IMG/VR virus record: IMGVR_UViG_3300020220_002918
Span: 1 to 20,291 of that record
Direction: 5' to 3' (one strand)
Source: a virus
DNA: 20,291 bases
Within the stretch, counting starts at the first letter, position 1. The number at the start of each line of letters is the position of its first letter. This document shows, piece after piece, positions 2,816 to 8,942 of this stretch. The notes beneath the pieces were generated by a model, which saw nothing but the letters and a program-made list of their open reading frames with translations, searched no databases and was not told the DNA's origin. Both the position numbers and the translations under genes were made by a program.

Positions 2816-5695
2816 TTACTTCTTGTACTTGGCTAGAACAGGATACTGAGCTACGTCCTCGGAAGTCAAGGGTTCGCTCCAACGAATGCACACTTCGGGG
2901 TCAATGTCAAGCACCAAATCATTACCGGGAACAGTGCACTTTTCACACATTGCAATTTTTATTACTTCTAACGTCTCATCAACCTGCTCTACAGGACAGG
3001 TAACTATTATCTGATCGTGAACACTCATAATAACCTTATACTGAAGGTGAGGGCGTTCAGCCTCACGAATCATATACAGATTGACTAAAGCTAGCGACAT
3101 AAGATCGCCAACAGTACCTTGAATCGGCGCATTCATTGCTTGTCGCTTCTGATGTGCCAGCAGTTCATCGTCTTCCGTATGCTCAAACCGACGACGTCGG
3201 CCAAAGCCATTCTCGACATAGCCCTGACTGCTGACCTTCTCTTGCTGCGATATTAGCCAACGTGCAAGCTGAGGAAAAGTCTCTTTAAACTTATCCACAG
3301 ATTGCTGAGCCTCTTCTAACGTAATGTTGATGCCTTCCACATATACCGCTTCTTTGATGGCTGCTCCTCCACGACCATAAGCAATTCCAAATGTGATAGT
3401 TTTTGCAATTGTCCTATACTTTATATTCCCGCTTTCCTTGAGCCAATCTTTCTTGCCTTTGGTATAGCCCGCCGGTGGCCGATCCAGGCGGAACATTTCT
3501 ATGGCAACCTCAGAATGGAAGTCCGAACCAGGGTCTCCAAGCTTTTGTTGCATATTAGTATCTCCTGACAGCCAGGCCATAACAAATAACTCTGCCTGCA
3601 CCCAGTCACAATCCAACAGTACCCAACCAGGATCTGCGCGGAAACACGAACGTATGGATGGGATTTGTTGATTACTGTCTTTAAACGCTTTGTTGACCAA
3701 ATCTTCGGCAGTCTTTGGAAGCTGAGCCATGTTAGGGTCGGAGTGCCCATAGCGGCCAGTTTCTACGGTCTGTCGAATACGGGTGTGTACTCTGTCGTCG
3801 CTCCAGAGCTTAGACAGAGTGCCACCGGTTATCTTGTGTCCACCTGTGATAGGATCGTCAACAAACTCTCCAGTAAAGGTTTTAACAGTCTGGGCTACGG
3901 CTGTATATAGCAGCATAGCATTGAGCAATAAATTGTCCTTATGCTGTAATAGCAATCCTGTCAGCACAGACCTATCAGTAGATGGTGTATAGCTGGCCAT
4001 TTTCTCCGGGTTCTTGATGAGGTCTGCCCACTTTTTGTCATTTGTAGCCTTGATTGGCTCAAACTTACAAAGAGTGGCAGTGTCAGGAAAGCTAGGCTTG
4101 GCTCCCTGCTTCACCCAGCCAAACAAAGCTGCAGCCTTTTGTACTGGAGAATCAGGATTAAAATCAGGCCAAGAGAGCATTGTTCTAAGGGTCTCTGCCA
4201 GTTCAGTACGCTTAGCTGTGTACTTGTGGGATAGTAGTTCTAGGCGTTCCTGATCTACATTCATGCCGGTCATCTCTATCTCTAGGATAGGTAGCGTAGC
4301 TGGCATTACTACATTTTGAAAAAGCTCTTTGATCTTATCATTTTCCGGTCGCATCATCTCCGCGTACTGAATCAAAAATATGCGGAATGTAGCATCTACA
4401 TCCTTGGCAGCATACGGCAATAGCACCTCGTCAGGAATGCCGCTGTAGCCAAACTCATCCACGTCATACTTATTGGCCTTAATCCAATTGTTCAGTTCCA
4501 ACTCATAGCGACCCATCTGAGTGTGCCGTGCTGTGTATACTTCTAGGCCTTGAGCCCAGTTCTCGTCTAGCAAGTGGCCAGCAAGTGCTGTATCCCAGCC
4601 GGTAAGAGTAGGGACAGTGACGTTTACTCCATTGTGCTTTAGCCAAGGTAAGTCGGCACGTATGAAGTGGCCTATTAGTTTGGTCTTACCGTTCTCTATA
4701 AAACTTTTAATCAAAGTCCACGTTTCTTGTGGATTTTGACCAATTAGAGTTGGCTGCAGATTAACGTGGTTAAACACAACAACCAATGCTTTGCCTGGGG
4801 CCCAACTGAATTGAATGCATCGTAAAGAGCCAGAAAGATGGTTACTGCCGCCCCACTCGCAGTCAACAGCCACCCACCCAGAGTACTCCTGCTCAATTGT
4901 ATTGAGGCGATCCTTCAGTTGCTCGGGGCTATAGATGTACTGATATTCAATGTGAGTATTGTCTTCTACGGTAACCTTACCGCTTGCCAGTTCATTAGTA
5001 ATTCTACTCATGTCCATAGCGATAGCAGCCCGTACTTCTGGCATATGAATAATTGCGGAAAAGTCCGTTATGATTGCAGTCTTGACTCCAAGGGGGCTTT
5101 CCTCGGCAGACATAGTACGATTCTTGTACTTCTCTACGGTGGCCTTAGCGCCCAGTACAGCCTTGAGAGTTTTAGCTCCCAATAGAATCACAAGATCGGG
5201 CTTAACTAGCTCAAGCTCTCGCTTGAACATGGCAGCGTATTCCTGGACTAACTCTTTTGGAATAGCTGTTTTCTTTCCGTCTACATACTGCTTTACATAA
5301 GTAGTGTAATAGCAGTCGTTTACAGGAAATTCAGTCTTGTGCACTAAGTCCTCAAACTCCGTAACCCAATCGCCAACATAGAGTCTGGCATTTGCATTTT
5401 CTTTGGAGTTAGGCCAACAGCCCACGAACATAATTTTCTTATGCGCAGGGCCTACGACTGCTGCAGCTGTTTTACCGGGAATTACAGGACCATGGCCAAA
5501 CACAGAGTCTAAGTGAATACCAGGAATAATCTTTACTGGCATGAACTTACCGTTTGCTCCGGTAATGGTTACGTTGCTAATGTTATTAAGCATCTCTTCA
5601 AAGGAGTACTCAATCTGCTGCCCATACTGTTCTGCTCGCAAAACAGCAATAGACCCGTATTTTTCAATTTTTTCATTGATGGCTTCTGCTGGCAT
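2816..5695 (-). CDS. polA: Family A DNA polymerase with 3'-5' exonuclease and UDG-like N-terminal domain
   Basis: The replicative polymerase, 959 aa. Residues about 80-222 resemble a family-4-type uracil-DNA glycosylase fold (IMFVGCWPN at 88-96, LVILLGAKTL at 168-177, IIHMPE at 215-220), but the usual GEAPG active-site motif is degraded. I recall a similar fusion in SPO1-type phage polymerases. Exonuclease motifs are intact: DCE (D278, E280), D348 and YAAKD (Y428, D432). Polymerase motif A has D697 and E702. Motif B is R761-K765-F769-Y773. Motif C is VHDQ (H893, D894, Q895) where family A normally has HDE. Phe at the E. coli 762 position has been linked with lytic phages. The frame opens further upstream, but the ATG at 5695 is chosen: GAAAGG lies just before it and the upstream clpS ends at 5706. 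The same initiation region is duplicated at 6098-6148. Confidence 0.96.
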   Translation of the reverse strand: MPAEAINEKIEKYGSIAVLRAEQYGQQIEYSFEEMLNNISNVTITGANGKFMPVKIIPGIHLDSVFGHGPVIPGKTAAAVVGPAHKKIMFVGCWPNSKENANARLYVGDWVTEFEDLVHKTEFPVNDCYYTTYVKQYVDGKKTAIPKELVQEYAAMFKRELELVKPDLVILLGAKTLKAVLGAKATVEKYKNRTMSAEESPLGVKTAIITDFSAIIHMPEVRAAIAMDMSRITNELASGKVTVEDNTHIEYQYIYSPEQLKDRLNTIEQEYSGWVAVDCEWGGSNHLSGSLRCIQFSWAPGKALVVVFNHVNLQPTLIGQNPQETWTLIKSFIENGKTKLIGHFIRADLPWLKHNGVNVTVPTLTGWDTALAGHLLDENWAQGLEVYTARHTQMGRYELELNNWIKANKYDVDEFGYSGIPDEVLLPYAAKDVDATFRIFLIQYAEMMRPENDKIKELFQNVVMPATLPILEIEMTGMNVDQERLELLSHKYTAKRTELAETLRTMLSWPDFNPDSPVQKAAALFGWVKQGAKPSFPDTATLCKFEPIKATNDKKWADLIKNPEKMASYTPSTDRSVLTGLLLQHKDNLLLNAMLLYTAVAQTVKTFTGEFVDDPITGGHKITGGTLSKLWSDDRVHTRIRQTVETGRYGHSDPNMAQLPKTAEDLVNKAFKDSNQQIPSIRSCFRADPGWVLLDCDWVQAELFVMAWLSGDTNMQQKLGDPGSDFHSEVAIEMFRLDRPPAGYTKGKKDWLKESGNIKYRTIAKTITFGIAYGRGGAAIKEAVYVEGINITLEEAQQSVDKFKETFPQLARWLISQQEKVSSQGYVENGFGRRRRFEHTEDDELLAHQKRQAMNAPIQGTVGDLMSLALVNLYMIREAERPHLQYKVIMSVHDQIIVTCPVEQVDETLEVIKIAMCEKCTVPGNDLVLDIDPEVCIRWSEPLTSEDVAQYPVLAKYKK

Positions 5696-5720
5696 TGTAT
5701 GCCTTTCAAGAGGGTTCAAT
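5670..5720. repeat. 51-bp perfect direct repeat, copy at the clpS/polymerase junction
   Basis: This copy holds the last codons of the downstream clpS-like gene (encoding IEPS-stop), the GAAAGG ribosome-binding site, and the first nine codons of the polymerase (MPAEAINEK, last codon only in part). It is identical over 51 bases to 6098-6148, while the clpS bodies upstream of the two copies have diverged strongly. Confidence 0.97.
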
Positions 5721-5990
5721 TTGGCAAAGATGACCATCTCTCTGCAATTGTTCTTGCAGAAGTTCGGCATGCTCCTTGTGAGTTGTTGCCACGATGGTCT
5801 CGCGTTCTATTTTCCATTCTACAGCCTTCCGTAAAGCCGTAAGCTCGTCCATCTTCACCCAATGTATAAGGCTTGCAATGATGTCAGTTACACACAGGTC
5901 GTATCCATCCCTGTTATATAAGATTACGTTCCACTCCTTGAAACTACTTGTTTGCGGTGGAATAGGCGTGGTGGAATTTTGATTAGACAT
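5706..5990 (-). CDS. clpS: ClpS-like protease adaptor, copy 1 (divergent)
   Basis: A 94-aa protein of about normal ClpS length. ClpS binds the N-domain of ClpA/ClpC and hands it substrates with destabilising N-termini (N-degron pathway). After a flexible N-terminus (1-19), WNVILYNRDGYDLCVTDII matches the first strand and helix of ClpS. The conserved NDD is NRD (26-28), so one key acidic residue is replaced by Arg. The second signature, VATTHKEHAELLQEQL, fits the ClpS strand-helix. The His that contacts the N-degron amino group in E. coli ClpS (H66) is not evident. It starts at ATG 5990, overlapping the end of the 46-codon chimeric gene by 8 bp, and ends 10 bp before the polymerase start. It may target host or phage proteins to ClpAP/ClpCP or act as a decoy; this is inference. 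Confidence 0.82.
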   Translation of the reverse strand: MSNQNSTTPIPPQTSSFKEWNVILYNRDGYDLCVTDIIASLIHWVKMDELTALRKAVEWKIERETIVATTHKEHAELLQEQLQRDGHLCQIEPS

Positions 5991-6123
5991 GGTTGTTTCT
6001 TTGTTTGTTAATTACGGCTTCCATAAGTTCTGAGGTAGTCATGCTGGCAGGATCTTTACCCTTGGCCAATTCGACAGCAAAGCATCCTTTTGCAACCTTT
6101 TCATTGATGGCTTCTGCTGGCAT
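5983..6123 (-). CDS. 46-aa chimeric peptide: polymerase N-terminus fused to primase C-terminal tail
   Basis: A small gene starting at ATG 6123 with the same GAAAGG initiation site as the polymerase. Its first nine residues, MPAEAINEK, equal the polymerase N-terminus. Residues 9-38 then match the primase C-terminal tail (primase residues 339-368) at 23 of 30 positions, including VAKGC, AVEL, KGKDPA, MTT and ELME. This tail is the end of the Toprim domain, where DnaG-type primases carry a GKDP motif. The reading frame is intact and ends with TAA 8 bp inside the next clpS-like gene. It is either a recombination remnant or a small protein mimicking the primase tail. Translation is plausible given the shared initiation site; function is unknown. 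Confidence 0.7.
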   Translation of the reverse strand: MPAEAINEKVAKGCFAVELAKGKDPASMTTSELMEAVINKQRNNHV

Positions 6124-6148
6124 TGTATGCCTTTCAAGAGGGTTCAAT
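6098..6148. repeat. 51-bp perfect direct repeat, upstream copy
   Basis: Identical to 5670-5720. It spans the last codons of the upstream clpS-like gene, the shared GAAAGG ribosome-binding site and the first codons of the chimeric 46-codon gene. Identity stops exactly inside codon 9, where the sequence switches from polymerase-like to primase-like. Confidence 0.97.
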
Positions 6149-6424
6149 CGTGCATATAAGAAATACAGATTTCAACTGTTCTTGCAGTAATTCAGCATGT
6201 TCCTTGTGGGTTATTGCCACAACGGCCAGCCCCTTAGTGTCTACTTCTATTGTCTTTTGAATGGCCTCAGGGAGGTCCAACTTTATAAGATTTATAAGGT
6301 TTAAAATAACGTATGTATAAGTGTTTACGTTGTCGTTATGCAAAACTACACTCCATGGCGTAAACCCATTTGTTTGTGAGGTGGGTAGTATGGGTGTAAT
6401 AGAAGTTTGATTAGATATTGTCAT
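6134..6424 (-). CDS. clpS: ClpS-like protease adaptor, copy 2 (more canonical)
   Basis: A 96-aa protein with a clear ClpS core: WSVVLHNDNVNTYTYVILNL has Asn30-Asp31 of the NDD motif, with Asn32 in third place. Residues TKGLAVVAITHKEHAELLQEQ match the second half of the fold. ClpS proteins select N-degron substrates for ClpA/ClpC. At the position of E. coli H66 an Asp appears (EVDTKG), a substitution I recall from ClpS forms outside the proteobacteria. It starts at ATG 6424, overlapping the upstream 59-aa gene by ATGA. Its C-terminal THKEHAELLQEQL and final IEPS are shared with copy 1, so the pair arose by duplication. Copy 1 has drifted further at the ligand-binding positions, suggesting different substrates. 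Confidence 0.86.
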   Translation of the reverse strand: MTISNQTSITPILPTSQTNGFTPWSVVLHNDNVNTYTYVILNLINLIKLDLPEAIQKTIEVDTKGLAVVAITHKEHAELLQEQLKSVFLICTIEPS

Positions 6425-6600
6425 TTTTTTTCAGTCCAAGGTAGGAGGTAACCGTTTTCGTCTTCTGCCAAGCCGGTGTAGATCACAACCTGCCCGGTGT
6501 TGTCTTTCTCCATGTTCATGCCGTACACATCTGAAAGAGTTTTAAGTAGTGCAGCGAGTTGTTTTATTGTTTCGAGTGCTTGTTCTTCTTTGTTTCGCAT
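6421..6600 (-). CDS. Small protein, 59 aa, unknown
   Basis: The frame from ATG 6600 begins MRNKEEQALETIKQLAALL and ends LLPWTEKK. The N-terminal half is probably a charged amphipathic helix; the C-terminal half (GQVVIYTGLAEDENGY) could be beta structure. The stop overlaps the clpS copy 2 start as ATGA, the junction style used throughout this operon, which supports it as a real gene. The ribosome-binding site is weak, and a candidate -10 element overlaps the start codon. Met28 or Met30 is therefore an alternative start if transcription begins there. I recognise no family. Confidence 0.65.
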   Translation of the reverse strand: MRNKEEQALETIKQLAALLKTLSDVYGMNMEKDNTGQVVIYTGLAEDENGYLLPWTEKK

Positions 6601-6627
6601 TATATTAGCCCAGTCTACGATGTTTAA
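6599..6627 (-). promoter_or_regulatory. Candidate sigma70-type promoter upstream of the clpS/polymerase genes
   Basis: On the minus strand TTAAAC (6627-6622) is followed after exactly 17 nt by a perfect TATAAT (6604-6599). It lies next to the only clearly non-coding A/T-rich gap in this part of the operon (about 6601-6686), after a T-run at about 6656-6650 of the transcript. The -35 matches consensus at only three of six positions. A start near 6591 would give a transcript lacking the ATG of the 59-aa gene. Confidence 0.3.
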
Positions 6628-6686
6628 TTTATCGCAAAAATAACATTAAAAAAATCACACTAATGCCCCAATACGAGTTTTAAATT

Positions 6687-6821
6687 TCATTTCTTTTTAT
6701 GTTTGGAAATTGATTTTAGCCATTTATTTTCGCTAACGATAATAATCGTAGTAGAAATCAAACCAACAAATAATGCAACAGAGCCCACTATGATAATGAT
6801 CTTAAAATTTTCCACGATCAT
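6687..6821 (-). CDS. Small single-pass membrane protein, 44 aa
   Basis: The frame from ATG 6821 begins MIVENFKIIIIVGSVALFVG, continues through a hydrophobic segment to about residue 29, and ends in a basic tail (NKWLKSISKHKKK). This is a single transmembrane helix with a positive cytoplasmic end. It overlaps the 3' end of the 23-codon frame in another reading frame and has only a weak GGTG upstream. The clean hydrophobic-then-basic pattern argues for a real gene. Function unknown. Confidence 0.5.
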   Translation of the reverse strand: MIVENFKIIIIVGSVALFVGLISTTIIIVSENKWLKSISKHKKK

Positions 6822-6873
6822 CACCAAGTTTTATCATTAAAAGGAGTATTACAAATGCTATTACAAGTATCAT
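6802..6873 (-). CDS. Tiny hydrophobic peptide, 23 aa
   Basis: The frame from ATG 6873 overlaps the stop of the upstream 57-aa gene as ATGA. It encodes MILVIAFVILLLMIK, about one membrane span, followed by a short charged end (LGDDRGKF). The ATGA junction and coherent hydrophobic composition are the only support; at this length chance is a serious alternative. Confidence 0.35.
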   Translation of the reverse strand: MILVIAFVILLLMIKLGDDRGKF

Positions 6874-7043
6874 TTTGGCGGCTCAATAGGACTTATTGGT
6901 GGTTCAAGAAGGCGTATTTCCCACGCGAGATAGCCTGTTGCAGCAGCATCTGTATAGAATTCGCTTTGCAGATAATCCAAGTATTTCAGCACATCATCTA
7001 GCGTGGAATCCTCTCCAATATCAATTTCTATTTTAACTTTCAT
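6870..7043 (-). CDS. Small protein, 57 aa, unknown
   Basis: The start is ATG 7043, overlapping the preceding TAA as TAATG, with GGGAG about 10 nt upstream. A longer frame exists from 7073, but it would lie inside the upstream gene. The protein begins MKVKIEIDIGEDSTLDDVLK and ends in a Pro-rich tail (EPPISPIEPPK). This suggests a small strand-helix fold. No family recognised. Confidence 0.7.
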   Translation of the reverse strand: MKVKIEIDIGEDSTLDDVLKYLDYLQSEFYTDAAATGYLAWEIRLLEPPISPIEPPK

Positions 7044-7342
7044 TAAGTAATTACTCCCGCTTTTTCTCCGCAATATTGTATTTTTATATCTTTAACAAAA
7101 TTTGGAAAAATCGATGAAAGGTATTTAATCACTGTCAGCAAATATCTCCAATCCGAACTTTGAAATAGTATCTCGCAATTTACATGGTCAATATGCCTAT
7201 ATGCGATTGCGACAGAATACTTAGATACTTTGTCAAAAATACTGAAATCTATAGTCGCAACCATTTTAAAAGACCGCTGGTTTTTTCTTTTTTGTTTACG
7301 AATTTGTTTCCAGTCGCCGTCACTAGGTAGATCAATCCACAT
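7043..7342 (-). CDS. Hypothetical protein, 99 aa
   Basis: Starts at ATG 7342 with GAGG eight bases upstream and ends in TAATG overlap with the next gene. The N-terminus is strongly basic (KQIRKQKRKNQR, residues 12-23). The rest alternates predicted strands and helices, with Trp and aromatic residues (SSDWRYLLTVIKYL). A second Met at residue 27 lacks a good ribosome-binding site. Unknown function; the basic segment could bind nucleic acid, but that is inference. Confidence 0.72.
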   Translation of the reverse strand: MWIDLPSDGDWKQIRKQKRKNQRSFKMVATIDFSIFDKVSKYSVAIAYRHIDHVNCEILFQSSDWRYLLTVIKYLSSIFPNFVKDIKIQYCGEKAGVIT

Positions 7343-7352
7343 TCAACCATCC

Positions 7353-7802
7353 TCATTCTGCCTTAGATTTACTGAAGTGTTTCATGCTCGTGTAAAACTT
7401 TTTGATCTGATCCGTATTTTCCAAGCGAATCTCAAGAGACACATAATTAGTCCCTTGCATGCCATGTTCGGTGTAATCAGTCTTTTTTGCTATCCAACTC
7501 AATGATGGGAAACGATCTGCAAACTGTGTTCGGAAATCCTTGAGCCACCCTTCATCGGTGTAAATCAGACCATGCTTATCGGTATCCCATACCTTCTTTG
7601 TAAAGAAGACATTTAAGTAAATCGTCATATTGACGGCGAACTCTTGTAGATTGGTATAAACTTCACCAATTTTTATTTCGATCGTGGAAGAGGTAACGGT
7701 TCGTACCTCCTCCGACCACAGGCCGTGGCCTGTAGTTTTACAACGGAGCGGAAGCTTAGGGGTCAAAATGATGCAGCTGTTTTCTTTAATTAACGTTTTC
7801 AT
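7353..7802 (-). CDS. Hypothetical protein, 149 aa
   Basis: A soluble 149-aa protein starting at ATG 7802, just after the primase. AAGGA is present but about 15 nt upstream, so initiation may depend on coupling. It shows a predicted strand-rich N-terminal half (VTSSTIEIKIGEVY), then IYTDEGWLKDFRTQF and DYTEHGMQGTNYVSLEIRL. The pattern is of a compact alpha/beta protein with no recognised catalytic motif. A 16-bp palindrome lies in its 5' part at 7718-7733. It is the first gene of the accessory stretch between primase and polymerase. Confidence 0.78.
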   Translation of the reverse strand: MKTLIKENSCIILTPKLPLRCKTTGHGLWSEEVRTVTSSTIEIKIGEVYTNLQEFAVNMTIYLNVFFTKKVWDTDKHGLIYTDEGWLKDFRTQFADRFPSLSWIAKKTDYTEHGMQGTNYVSLEIRLENTDQIKKFYTSMKHFSKSKAE

Positions 7803-7814
7803 TTTTATTTATCG

Positions 7815-8942
7815 CTATCCTTGTATGTTTACTTTTCTATTCAAAACTTCCATCAATTCTAACGTTGTCATATTGGCGGGGTCTTTACCTTTATCCAGCT
7901 CGACAGCAAGGCACCCTTTTGCAACTTTGTCATTCAGTCTCGCAATGACATCGAAGATACGCTTATTGGCTGCAGCCTCATGCTCGACCATGAAAACAAT
8001 CTGCCCGTCTTTAAACGTATTTGCAAGCAACTCTTCTTGTATTGGCCTTGGGTACATGCCAAAGGTGCACACGCCAGCAAAACCACAAGCTATTGCGGAC
8101 AGCGCACCCTCGCAAACAATACAGAAGTCGCCGTTGCTGAATGCTTTGGCAGACTCCAAATGATAGACGCTTGAGCTGAAGGAGTACCCTGGGGCATTCA
8201 AATACTTTTGTATGACAGGCTTACCAGAGTTAGGATCTTTTGGGATGTCTCCGATGTACCTTGCCATCCAGCCCTGCCATATGCCTTGTTGAACATTAGG
8301 AATGATAAGTCTGTTCTGTGGGGTTATCGTATGCCAGTTGCCGCTTGAGTCCGTGAATCGTTTTTGCCATGGGCTTTTATTACAAAAACAAAATTGATAC
8401 TCGTTTGCCAGCATATTGATGTCTGTAAAGTTTCTAGAGATCAAATACTGAATAACGGGATGATCTTCAGCCAATTGATTAATTGGAATAAGATCTTCCA
8501 CAGGACCTGGCAACTCCATTCTTTTAGCATCTACATCTACTCCTGTCCTGAGATCTTCGGACTTTTGCTCTATGGCGGGATCGTAGTCTGTGCCAAATAA
8601 CACATTCCACAAATCTCCCCAGTAGCAACTCTCATTGTGACACTTCACGCACGAGAACAATTTTTTATTTGCTTGCTCGCAGTGAGTGCCCCAGATGTGA
8701 CTGATGTACAGTCGGGATCTCTTGTCATTGCATCGAGGACAATTTACAGCATATGTCTCGCCCCAATTAATTAGGTTTACGCGCTTTGTGGAAGCACCAA
8801 GATTGCCGTTACGGGCCGAGGCCCAAGCAGCAACCTTATCTTCAACCACGTGGTACTTAGCCTCGATTCCAGCATTGGTTACCTGTACCTTTCCGAATCT
8901 TTTCTTCAAGGCTTTGAAAAGAGATTCATTTATATGCTTCAT
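7815..8942 (-). CDS. DNA primase: zinc-binding domain plus Toprim-like domain
   Basis: A 375-aa primase of T7/DnaG type that makes RNA primers for lagging-strand synthesis. The zinc-binding domain has CPRC (C68, C71) and CVKC (C98, C101), in spacing typical of phage primases. The middle part (RLIIPNVQQGIWQGWMARYI, 211-230; KYLNAPG, 246-252) is the conserved region before the Toprim fold. The Toprim Glu is in VCEGALSAI (E278). The usual DxD is replaced by ExE in FMVEHEAAANKR (E320, E322). The tail at 339-368 (VAKGC ... GKDPANMTT) is duplicated in the 46-codon gene at 5983-6123. The ATG overlaps the helicase stop as ATGA, so the two should be made in step. A separate priming RNA-polymerase fold cannot be excluded. 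Confidence 0.9.
   Translation of the reverse strand: MKHINESLFKALKKRFGKVQVTNAGIEAKYHVVEDKVAAWASARNGNLGASTKRVNLINWGETYAVNCPRCNDKRSRLYISHIWGTHCEQANKKLFSCVKCHNESCYWGDLWNVLFGTDYDPAIEQKSEDLRTGVDVDAKRMELPGPVEDLIPINQLAEDHPVIQYLISRNFTDINMLANEYQFCFCNKSPWQKRFTDSSGNWHTITPQNRLIIPNVQQGIWQGWMARYIGDIPKDPNSGKPVIQKYLNAPGYSFSSSVYHLESAKAFSNGDFCIVCEGALSAIACGFAGVCTFGMYPRPIQEELLANTFKDGQIVFMVEHEAAANKRIFDVIARLNDKVAKGCLAVELDKGKDPANMTTLELMEVLNRKVNIQG

Follow-up and report, generated by a model that had tools for sequence, protein, structure and literature searches.

Two divergent ClpS-fold genes in the replication cluster of a virus, with a probable origin of the pair by recombination

The stretch of DNA considered here, referred to as the window, corresponds to a virus record 20,291 bases long, and a cluster of replication genes lies on its minus strand. 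In the direction of transcription, the cluster begins with genes for SbcD-like and SbcC-like proteins, a UvsW-like helicase, a DnaB-like helicase and a primase, followed by four small ORFs; clpS copy 2, a short chimeric ORF, clpS copy 1 and a family A DNA polymerase come next, and the order then continues with a 510-aa ORF and a UvsX-like recombinase. The polymerase gene, which starts at 5695, is directly downstream of clpS copy 1. An initial sequence-only reading had placed two ORFs with the ClpS core at 5706-6424, immediately upstream of the polymerase within a replication operon; the coordinates are right (minus strand), as is the setting within a replication gene cluster. The features of the locus are as follows.

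2816..5695, minus strand: family A DNA polymerase with an N-terminal uracil-DNA-glycosylase-like domain (Pfam)
5670..5720, minus strand: 51-bp exact direct repeat, at the start of the polymerase gene
5706..5990, minus strand: clpS copy 1 (94 aa), a diverged ClpS (below the Pfam cut-off; ClpS by AlphaFold2 and Foldseek)
5983..6123, minus strand: chimeric ORF (46 aa), a recombination scar made up of the polymerase start MPAEAINEK and a second primase C-terminal tail
6098..6148, minus strand: 51-bp exact direct repeat, at the end of clpS copy 2
6134..6424, minus strand: clpS copy 2 (96 aa), a planctomycete-type ClpS (Pfam ClpS; AlphaFold2 and Foldseek)
6421..7802, minus strand: four small ORFs of unknown function (149, 99, 67 and 59 aa), in the interval from primase to clpS copy 2
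7815..8942, minus strand: primase (PHROG DNA primase, 1.1e-23)

The polymerase has Pfam matches to DNA_pol_A (4.7e-54), an exonuclease (5.1e-14) and UDG (E=2.4e-9), and its UDG-like domain is fused N-terminally to the exonuclease and polymerase domains. A scan for promoters and terminators gave a number of sites that was not above that obtained with shuffled sequences.

The two ClpS proteins are about 46-47% identical to each other. Copy 2 is a ClpS by both sequence and predicted fold: it matches Pfam family PF02617 (ClpS) at E=4.1e-15, with 55.8 bits against a gathering cut-off of 23, its best sequence match in the PDB is plant CLPS1 (E=7e-6), and its AlphaFold2 model (pLDDT 86) gave 38 Foldseek matches at E<=0.001, all to ClpS and the best at 0.7 A. 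Copy 1 scores 16.3 bits with PF02617 (E=0.0086) and, since this is under the cut-off, is described as a diverged ClpS homologue and not as a Pfam-grade member; its nearest relative, the ClpS of the related contig L020, also falls under the cut-off (13.6 bits). Copy 1 is 80% identical to the ClpS of L020, 62% to that of L015 and 55% to that of L016, and the top 38 solved structures found by Foldseek with its AlphaFold2 model (pLDDT 89) are all ClpS. Of the checks proposed in the sequence-only reading, the profile search thus identifies copy 2 and leaves copy 1 sub-threshold, and structure prediction gives both proteins the ClpS alpha/beta core; both are accordingly ClpS-fold proteins.

Relatives of the phage were gathered by scanning IMG/VR with the polymerase, which yielded 16 contigs. 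A single clpS occupies the primase-polymerase junction in 12 of these (polymerase identity 68-94%), from which one clpS at this site can be taken as the normal state of the group; the 12 amount to about six lineages, since several of them are near-duplicates. In these relatives the primase is the gene that precedes clpS, and the four small ORFs of 6421..7802 are absent. No clpS was found by tblastn in three contigs, which are among the more distant ones (polymerase identity 64-67%). One contig, L019 (the same contig as L001), carries the window's clpS pair, and the pair was seen solely in the window's virus population, a second contig included.

The best matches to the phage ClpS in the genome collection are from Planctomycetota, mostly Phycisphaerales, and none of these bacterial matches has the replication genes of this phage alongside clpS. 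In a tree built from a short alignment (84 columns), the phage ClpS proteins lie inside a Planctomycetota clade with support of 100/99, and a single phage clade is supported at only 58/5. The THKEHAELLQEQL segment and IEPS end that the sequence-only reading had noticed in both copies are real but not peculiar to the pair, being found in nearly every planctomycete ClpS, where the signature is THKE(R/H)AEL..(E/D)Q...IEP. Clp_N chaperones, the candidate docking partners, are encoded in all 10 bacterial genomes tested and were found in none of six virus records. Judging from one short gene, clpS, the virus probably infects Planctomycetota.

Planctomycete-type ClpS also occurs in virus contigs that do not have this replication cluster, namely L116 (5989-6273) and L117, where its neighbours are a RecA/DnaB-like ATPase and ORFs that by eye resemble a MoxR ATPase and a metallopeptidase/VWA-type protein; in the tree, the ClpS of L116 lies near those of the phages considered here. 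L033, filed as a Bacteroidia MAG, has a ClpS almost identical to that of the Planctomycetota MAGs among L031-L037 and is probably a binning error.

The alpha-amino contacts of the ClpS pocket are Asn47, Asp49 and His79 in Caulobacter (PMC12493166), which correspond by our own alignment to Asn34, Asp36 and His66 of E. coli ClpS, and the contacts of ClpS with ClpA are Glu79, Glu82 and Lys84 (PMC12493166). Neither phage protein has all three pocket residues. Copy 2 keeps Asn34, with Asn at Asp36 and Asp at His66; copy 1 keeps Asn34 and Asp36, with Lys at His66 and Arg at the neighbouring Asp35, so that two pocket positions are Asp in copy 2 and basic in copy 1. Further pocket changes in copy 1 are Met40 to Val, a conserved Gly to Arg, and two additional residues in the pocket loop. 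The NRD motif ascribed to copy 1 at the outset is therefore correct, and so is its lack of the His, but copy 2 lacks this residue as well; the Asn-Asp said to be kept in copy 2 is present in a motif that reads NDN, the third residue being lost. The loss of His66 is nothing special to copy 2, since the single ClpS of L014-L017 and L023, many bacterial relatives and also Leptospira ClpS1 have Asp at this position.

The docking helix has hardly changed. Of the ClpA contacts, Glu79 and Glu82 show no variation among the phage copies and Lys84 is Leu in copies 1 and 2; the THKEHAELLQEQL...IEP block sits on the ClpA/ClpC-docking helix. When the copy-1 allele is compared with the ClpS of L014 and L015, differences fall at 9-10 of 12 pocket positions and at 1-2 of 19 docking-strip positions (p 0.003-0.015), an enrichment in the pocket that drops to p 0.04-0.09 once the strip is omitted; the sparing of the strip itself has p 0.00004-0.0007 (vs L015/L014). 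Between L020 and L014, amino-acid-changing sites were altered at 14.3/37 and 10.5/23 in the pocket segments and at 4/45 in the docking strip. The differences between copy 1 and L020 taken alone show no pocket enrichment (p 0.33). The DNA alignment, inspected by eye, gave no clear shifted frame that would make a compensated frameshift the source of the copy-1 pocket. With pocket residues so different and docking residues so alike, a different substrate choice of the two copies, as the sequence-only reading had proposed, is plausible.

Rates of evolution set the copy-1 allele apart. The clpS gene is normally well conserved, given a dN/dS of only 0.02 between L014 and L015, and copy 2 gives 0.17 to L015. 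Values for the copy-1 allele, from pairs that have branches in common, are 0.69-0.94 for L020 against L015 and L014, 0.69-0.88 for copy 1 against the same two, and 2.45 for copy 1 against L020; those of five other genes (0.03-0.10) are lower (Fisher p 1e-11 or less). The copy-1 allele has evolved fast. Its dN/dS is not significantly above 1 (p 0.31), and relaxed constraint therefore fits as well.

The sequence-only reading had suggested that the phage redirects or blocks host proteolysis, which it may do. At about an even chance, the pair can be read as two adaptors for the host ClpA/ClpC-ClpP protease, copy 1 having a changed substrate range. Two other accounts of copy 1 are live rivals to this. 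In one, which we consider less likely, copy 1 is a decoy (anti-adaptor) that docks on the host Clp chaperone and cannot hold substrates; it would keep host ClpS, and perhaps copy 2, off the chaperone and so spare viral or host proteins. The near-unchanged docking helix is what such a protein would show, as are the replacements of Asp35 by Arg, His66 by Lys and the conserved Gly by Arg in the pocket. However, copy 1 also retains the N-terminal tail of its allele group, and in E. coli ClpS this tail is required for delivery. Of the three published amino-group contacts, copy 1 moreover has two, Asn34 and Asp36, and in L020 a ClpS of the copy-1 type is the sole one.

The other account, that copy 1 is redundant and decaying under relaxed constraint after having been brought in by recombination, and has no present use, is in our view about as likely as the decoy role. 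It draws on a dN/dS of the copy-1 allele that is indistinguishable from 1 and on Pfam scores under the cut-off in both the window and L020. A decaying gene would not be expected to have a reading frame that is intact in the window, L019 and L020, to give a confident ClpS model, or to have changes that avoid the docking strip to the extent described above.

The history of the pair itself is legible in the DNA. In the tree, copy 1 and the one ClpS of L020 form a group at 100/100, apart from copy 2; the dS of copy 1 is 0.046 to L020 compared with 1.26 to copy 2, and five other genes of the window have a dS of 0.22-1.07 to L020. The 51-bp exact repeat consists of the end of clpS and the start of the polymerase gene, its two copies are 428 bp apart, and L020, L014 and L015 each differ from it at several positions. 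Between the clpS genes, the primase tail in the chimeric ORF is 93-95% identical as protein to the primases of L003-L005 and 71% to the window's own; the DNA repeat D1 is 80% identical to the window's own primase tail, and by identity profile the window primase diverges from its relatives mainly over the last ~75 bp. The last residue of copy 1 is Ser, as in copy 2, and not Ala, as in L020, which fits a crossover at the polymerase start. The pair thus appears to have arisen by recombination and not by duplication and divergence, and the second primase tail and 51-bp repeats that explain this origin had been left out of the sequence-only reading.

That reading had called the two genes paralogs. 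An in-place tandem duplication that later diverged, with direct repeats 428 bp apart and copies 47% identical in its favour, was rejected as highly improbable on the grouping of copy 1 with L020, its low dS to L020 and the presence of a relative's primase tail in the cassette. Scarcely more credible is an assembly artefact fusing two phage strains, even though misjoins typically occur at repeats such as these 51-bp exact ones: IMGVR_UViG_3300020196_002520 carries both clpS genes and the scar, and the ~190 bp, including a partial repeat, that it has beyond the window just upstream of clpS copy 2 mark this second contig as a variant assembled separately.

The stretch from primase to clpS copy 2 (window 6421-7802; L129:6463-7010; L019:240-365) is an insertion hot spot. 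A search for donors of the inserted small ORFs found one near-identical contig, L129, which is 99.94% identical to the window as far as the 149-aa ORF extends and carries other sequence beyond it, and partial relatives of the 59-aa ORF. The latter (window 6421-6600) is perhaps a small mobile gene, its partial relatives (L131-L139), several of them to the C-terminal half only, being spread over virus contigs that are otherwise unrelated. ClpS appeared in none of the contigs from this search except the known second contig.

On the reading of the pair as two adaptors, a clpS gene would have been captured from a Planctomycetota-type bacterium and have then settled between primase and polymerase, and from this position it is probably expressed early, together with the replication proteins. 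In the simplest history, recombination at the start of the polymerase gene gave an ancestor with copy 2 a cassette of 428 bp (primase tail and clpS copy 1) that came from an L020-like phage. Both proteins would keep the face used for docking on the N-domain of the Clp chaperone; copy 2 has the pocket type of many planctomycete relatives, with Asp replacing His, and copy 1, its pocket rebuilt with basic residues, would most likely bring different proteins to the host protease that both serve. Against two adaptors stands the replacement of the ClpA contact Lys84 (E. coli) by Leu in both copies. If copy 1 is active, a phage can reset the targets of a host protease through changes in an adaptor of 10 kDa, and the two copies, which have the same docking face and opposite pocket charge, lend themselves naturally to tests of ClpS specificity. 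A broader proposal, which we hold to be doubtful, is that this phage group uses ClpS as a modular retargeting device with a constant docking face and a fast-changing degron pocket, two pocket types being stacked here; copy 1 would then recognize something other than a free hydrophobic N-terminus, for instance an end that is blocked or acidic, and bring a new degron class to host Clp.

Phage-encoded ClpS is already known from jumbo phages through two papers (PMC7824862; PMC6102473), in one of which delivery of targets to host ClpAP is proposed; the phage genes found in the literature are genome listings, without experiment on the phage protein. The jumbo phage examples (Atu_ph07 gp708, PA5oct, GAP32 and AMM43882.1) resemble the window in encoding ClpS, but they have a single copy of E. 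coli-like sequence in much larger phages and, in the three examined, clpS is not at the primase-polymerase site. Matches to E. coli ClpS occur in 22 of 50,697 phage records, at one place per record in all 22 and at two places in none, tblastn with copy 1 and copy 2 gave no match in the same records, and the phage ClpS genes met in literature searches were all single; the sequence-only reading was not aware of a described phage system with paired ClpS, and to this extent that holds. Planctomycetota ClpS with Asp at His66 (e.g., L030-L037) are the closest bacterial relatives, that of L030 being 61% identical to the ClpS of L015. They share the NDDVNT(Y/F), THKE/THRE and IEP signatures and the Asp for His with the phage proteins, but are chromosomal, stand without the replication genes of this phage, and in none was the copy-1 Arg/Lys pocket seen. 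Leptospira ClpS1 and ClpS2 are likewise two adaptors with different pockets in one genome, and ClpS1 resembles copy 2 in the changes of His to Asp and Met40 to Tyr and in the loss of Lys84 (PMC12493166); in contrast to the phage pair, they are bacterial and encoded by unlinked genes, and Arg/Lys of the copy-1 type is absent from the ClpS1 pocket in its published description. In the present phage group, the position of clpS within the replication cluster is fixed, and the change lies in the substrate pocket and not in the protease-docking face. As far as these searches reach, what is new is a planctomycete-type ClpS fixed at the primase-polymerase site, two of its alleles in one genome, and a fast-evolving, charge-reversed pocket.
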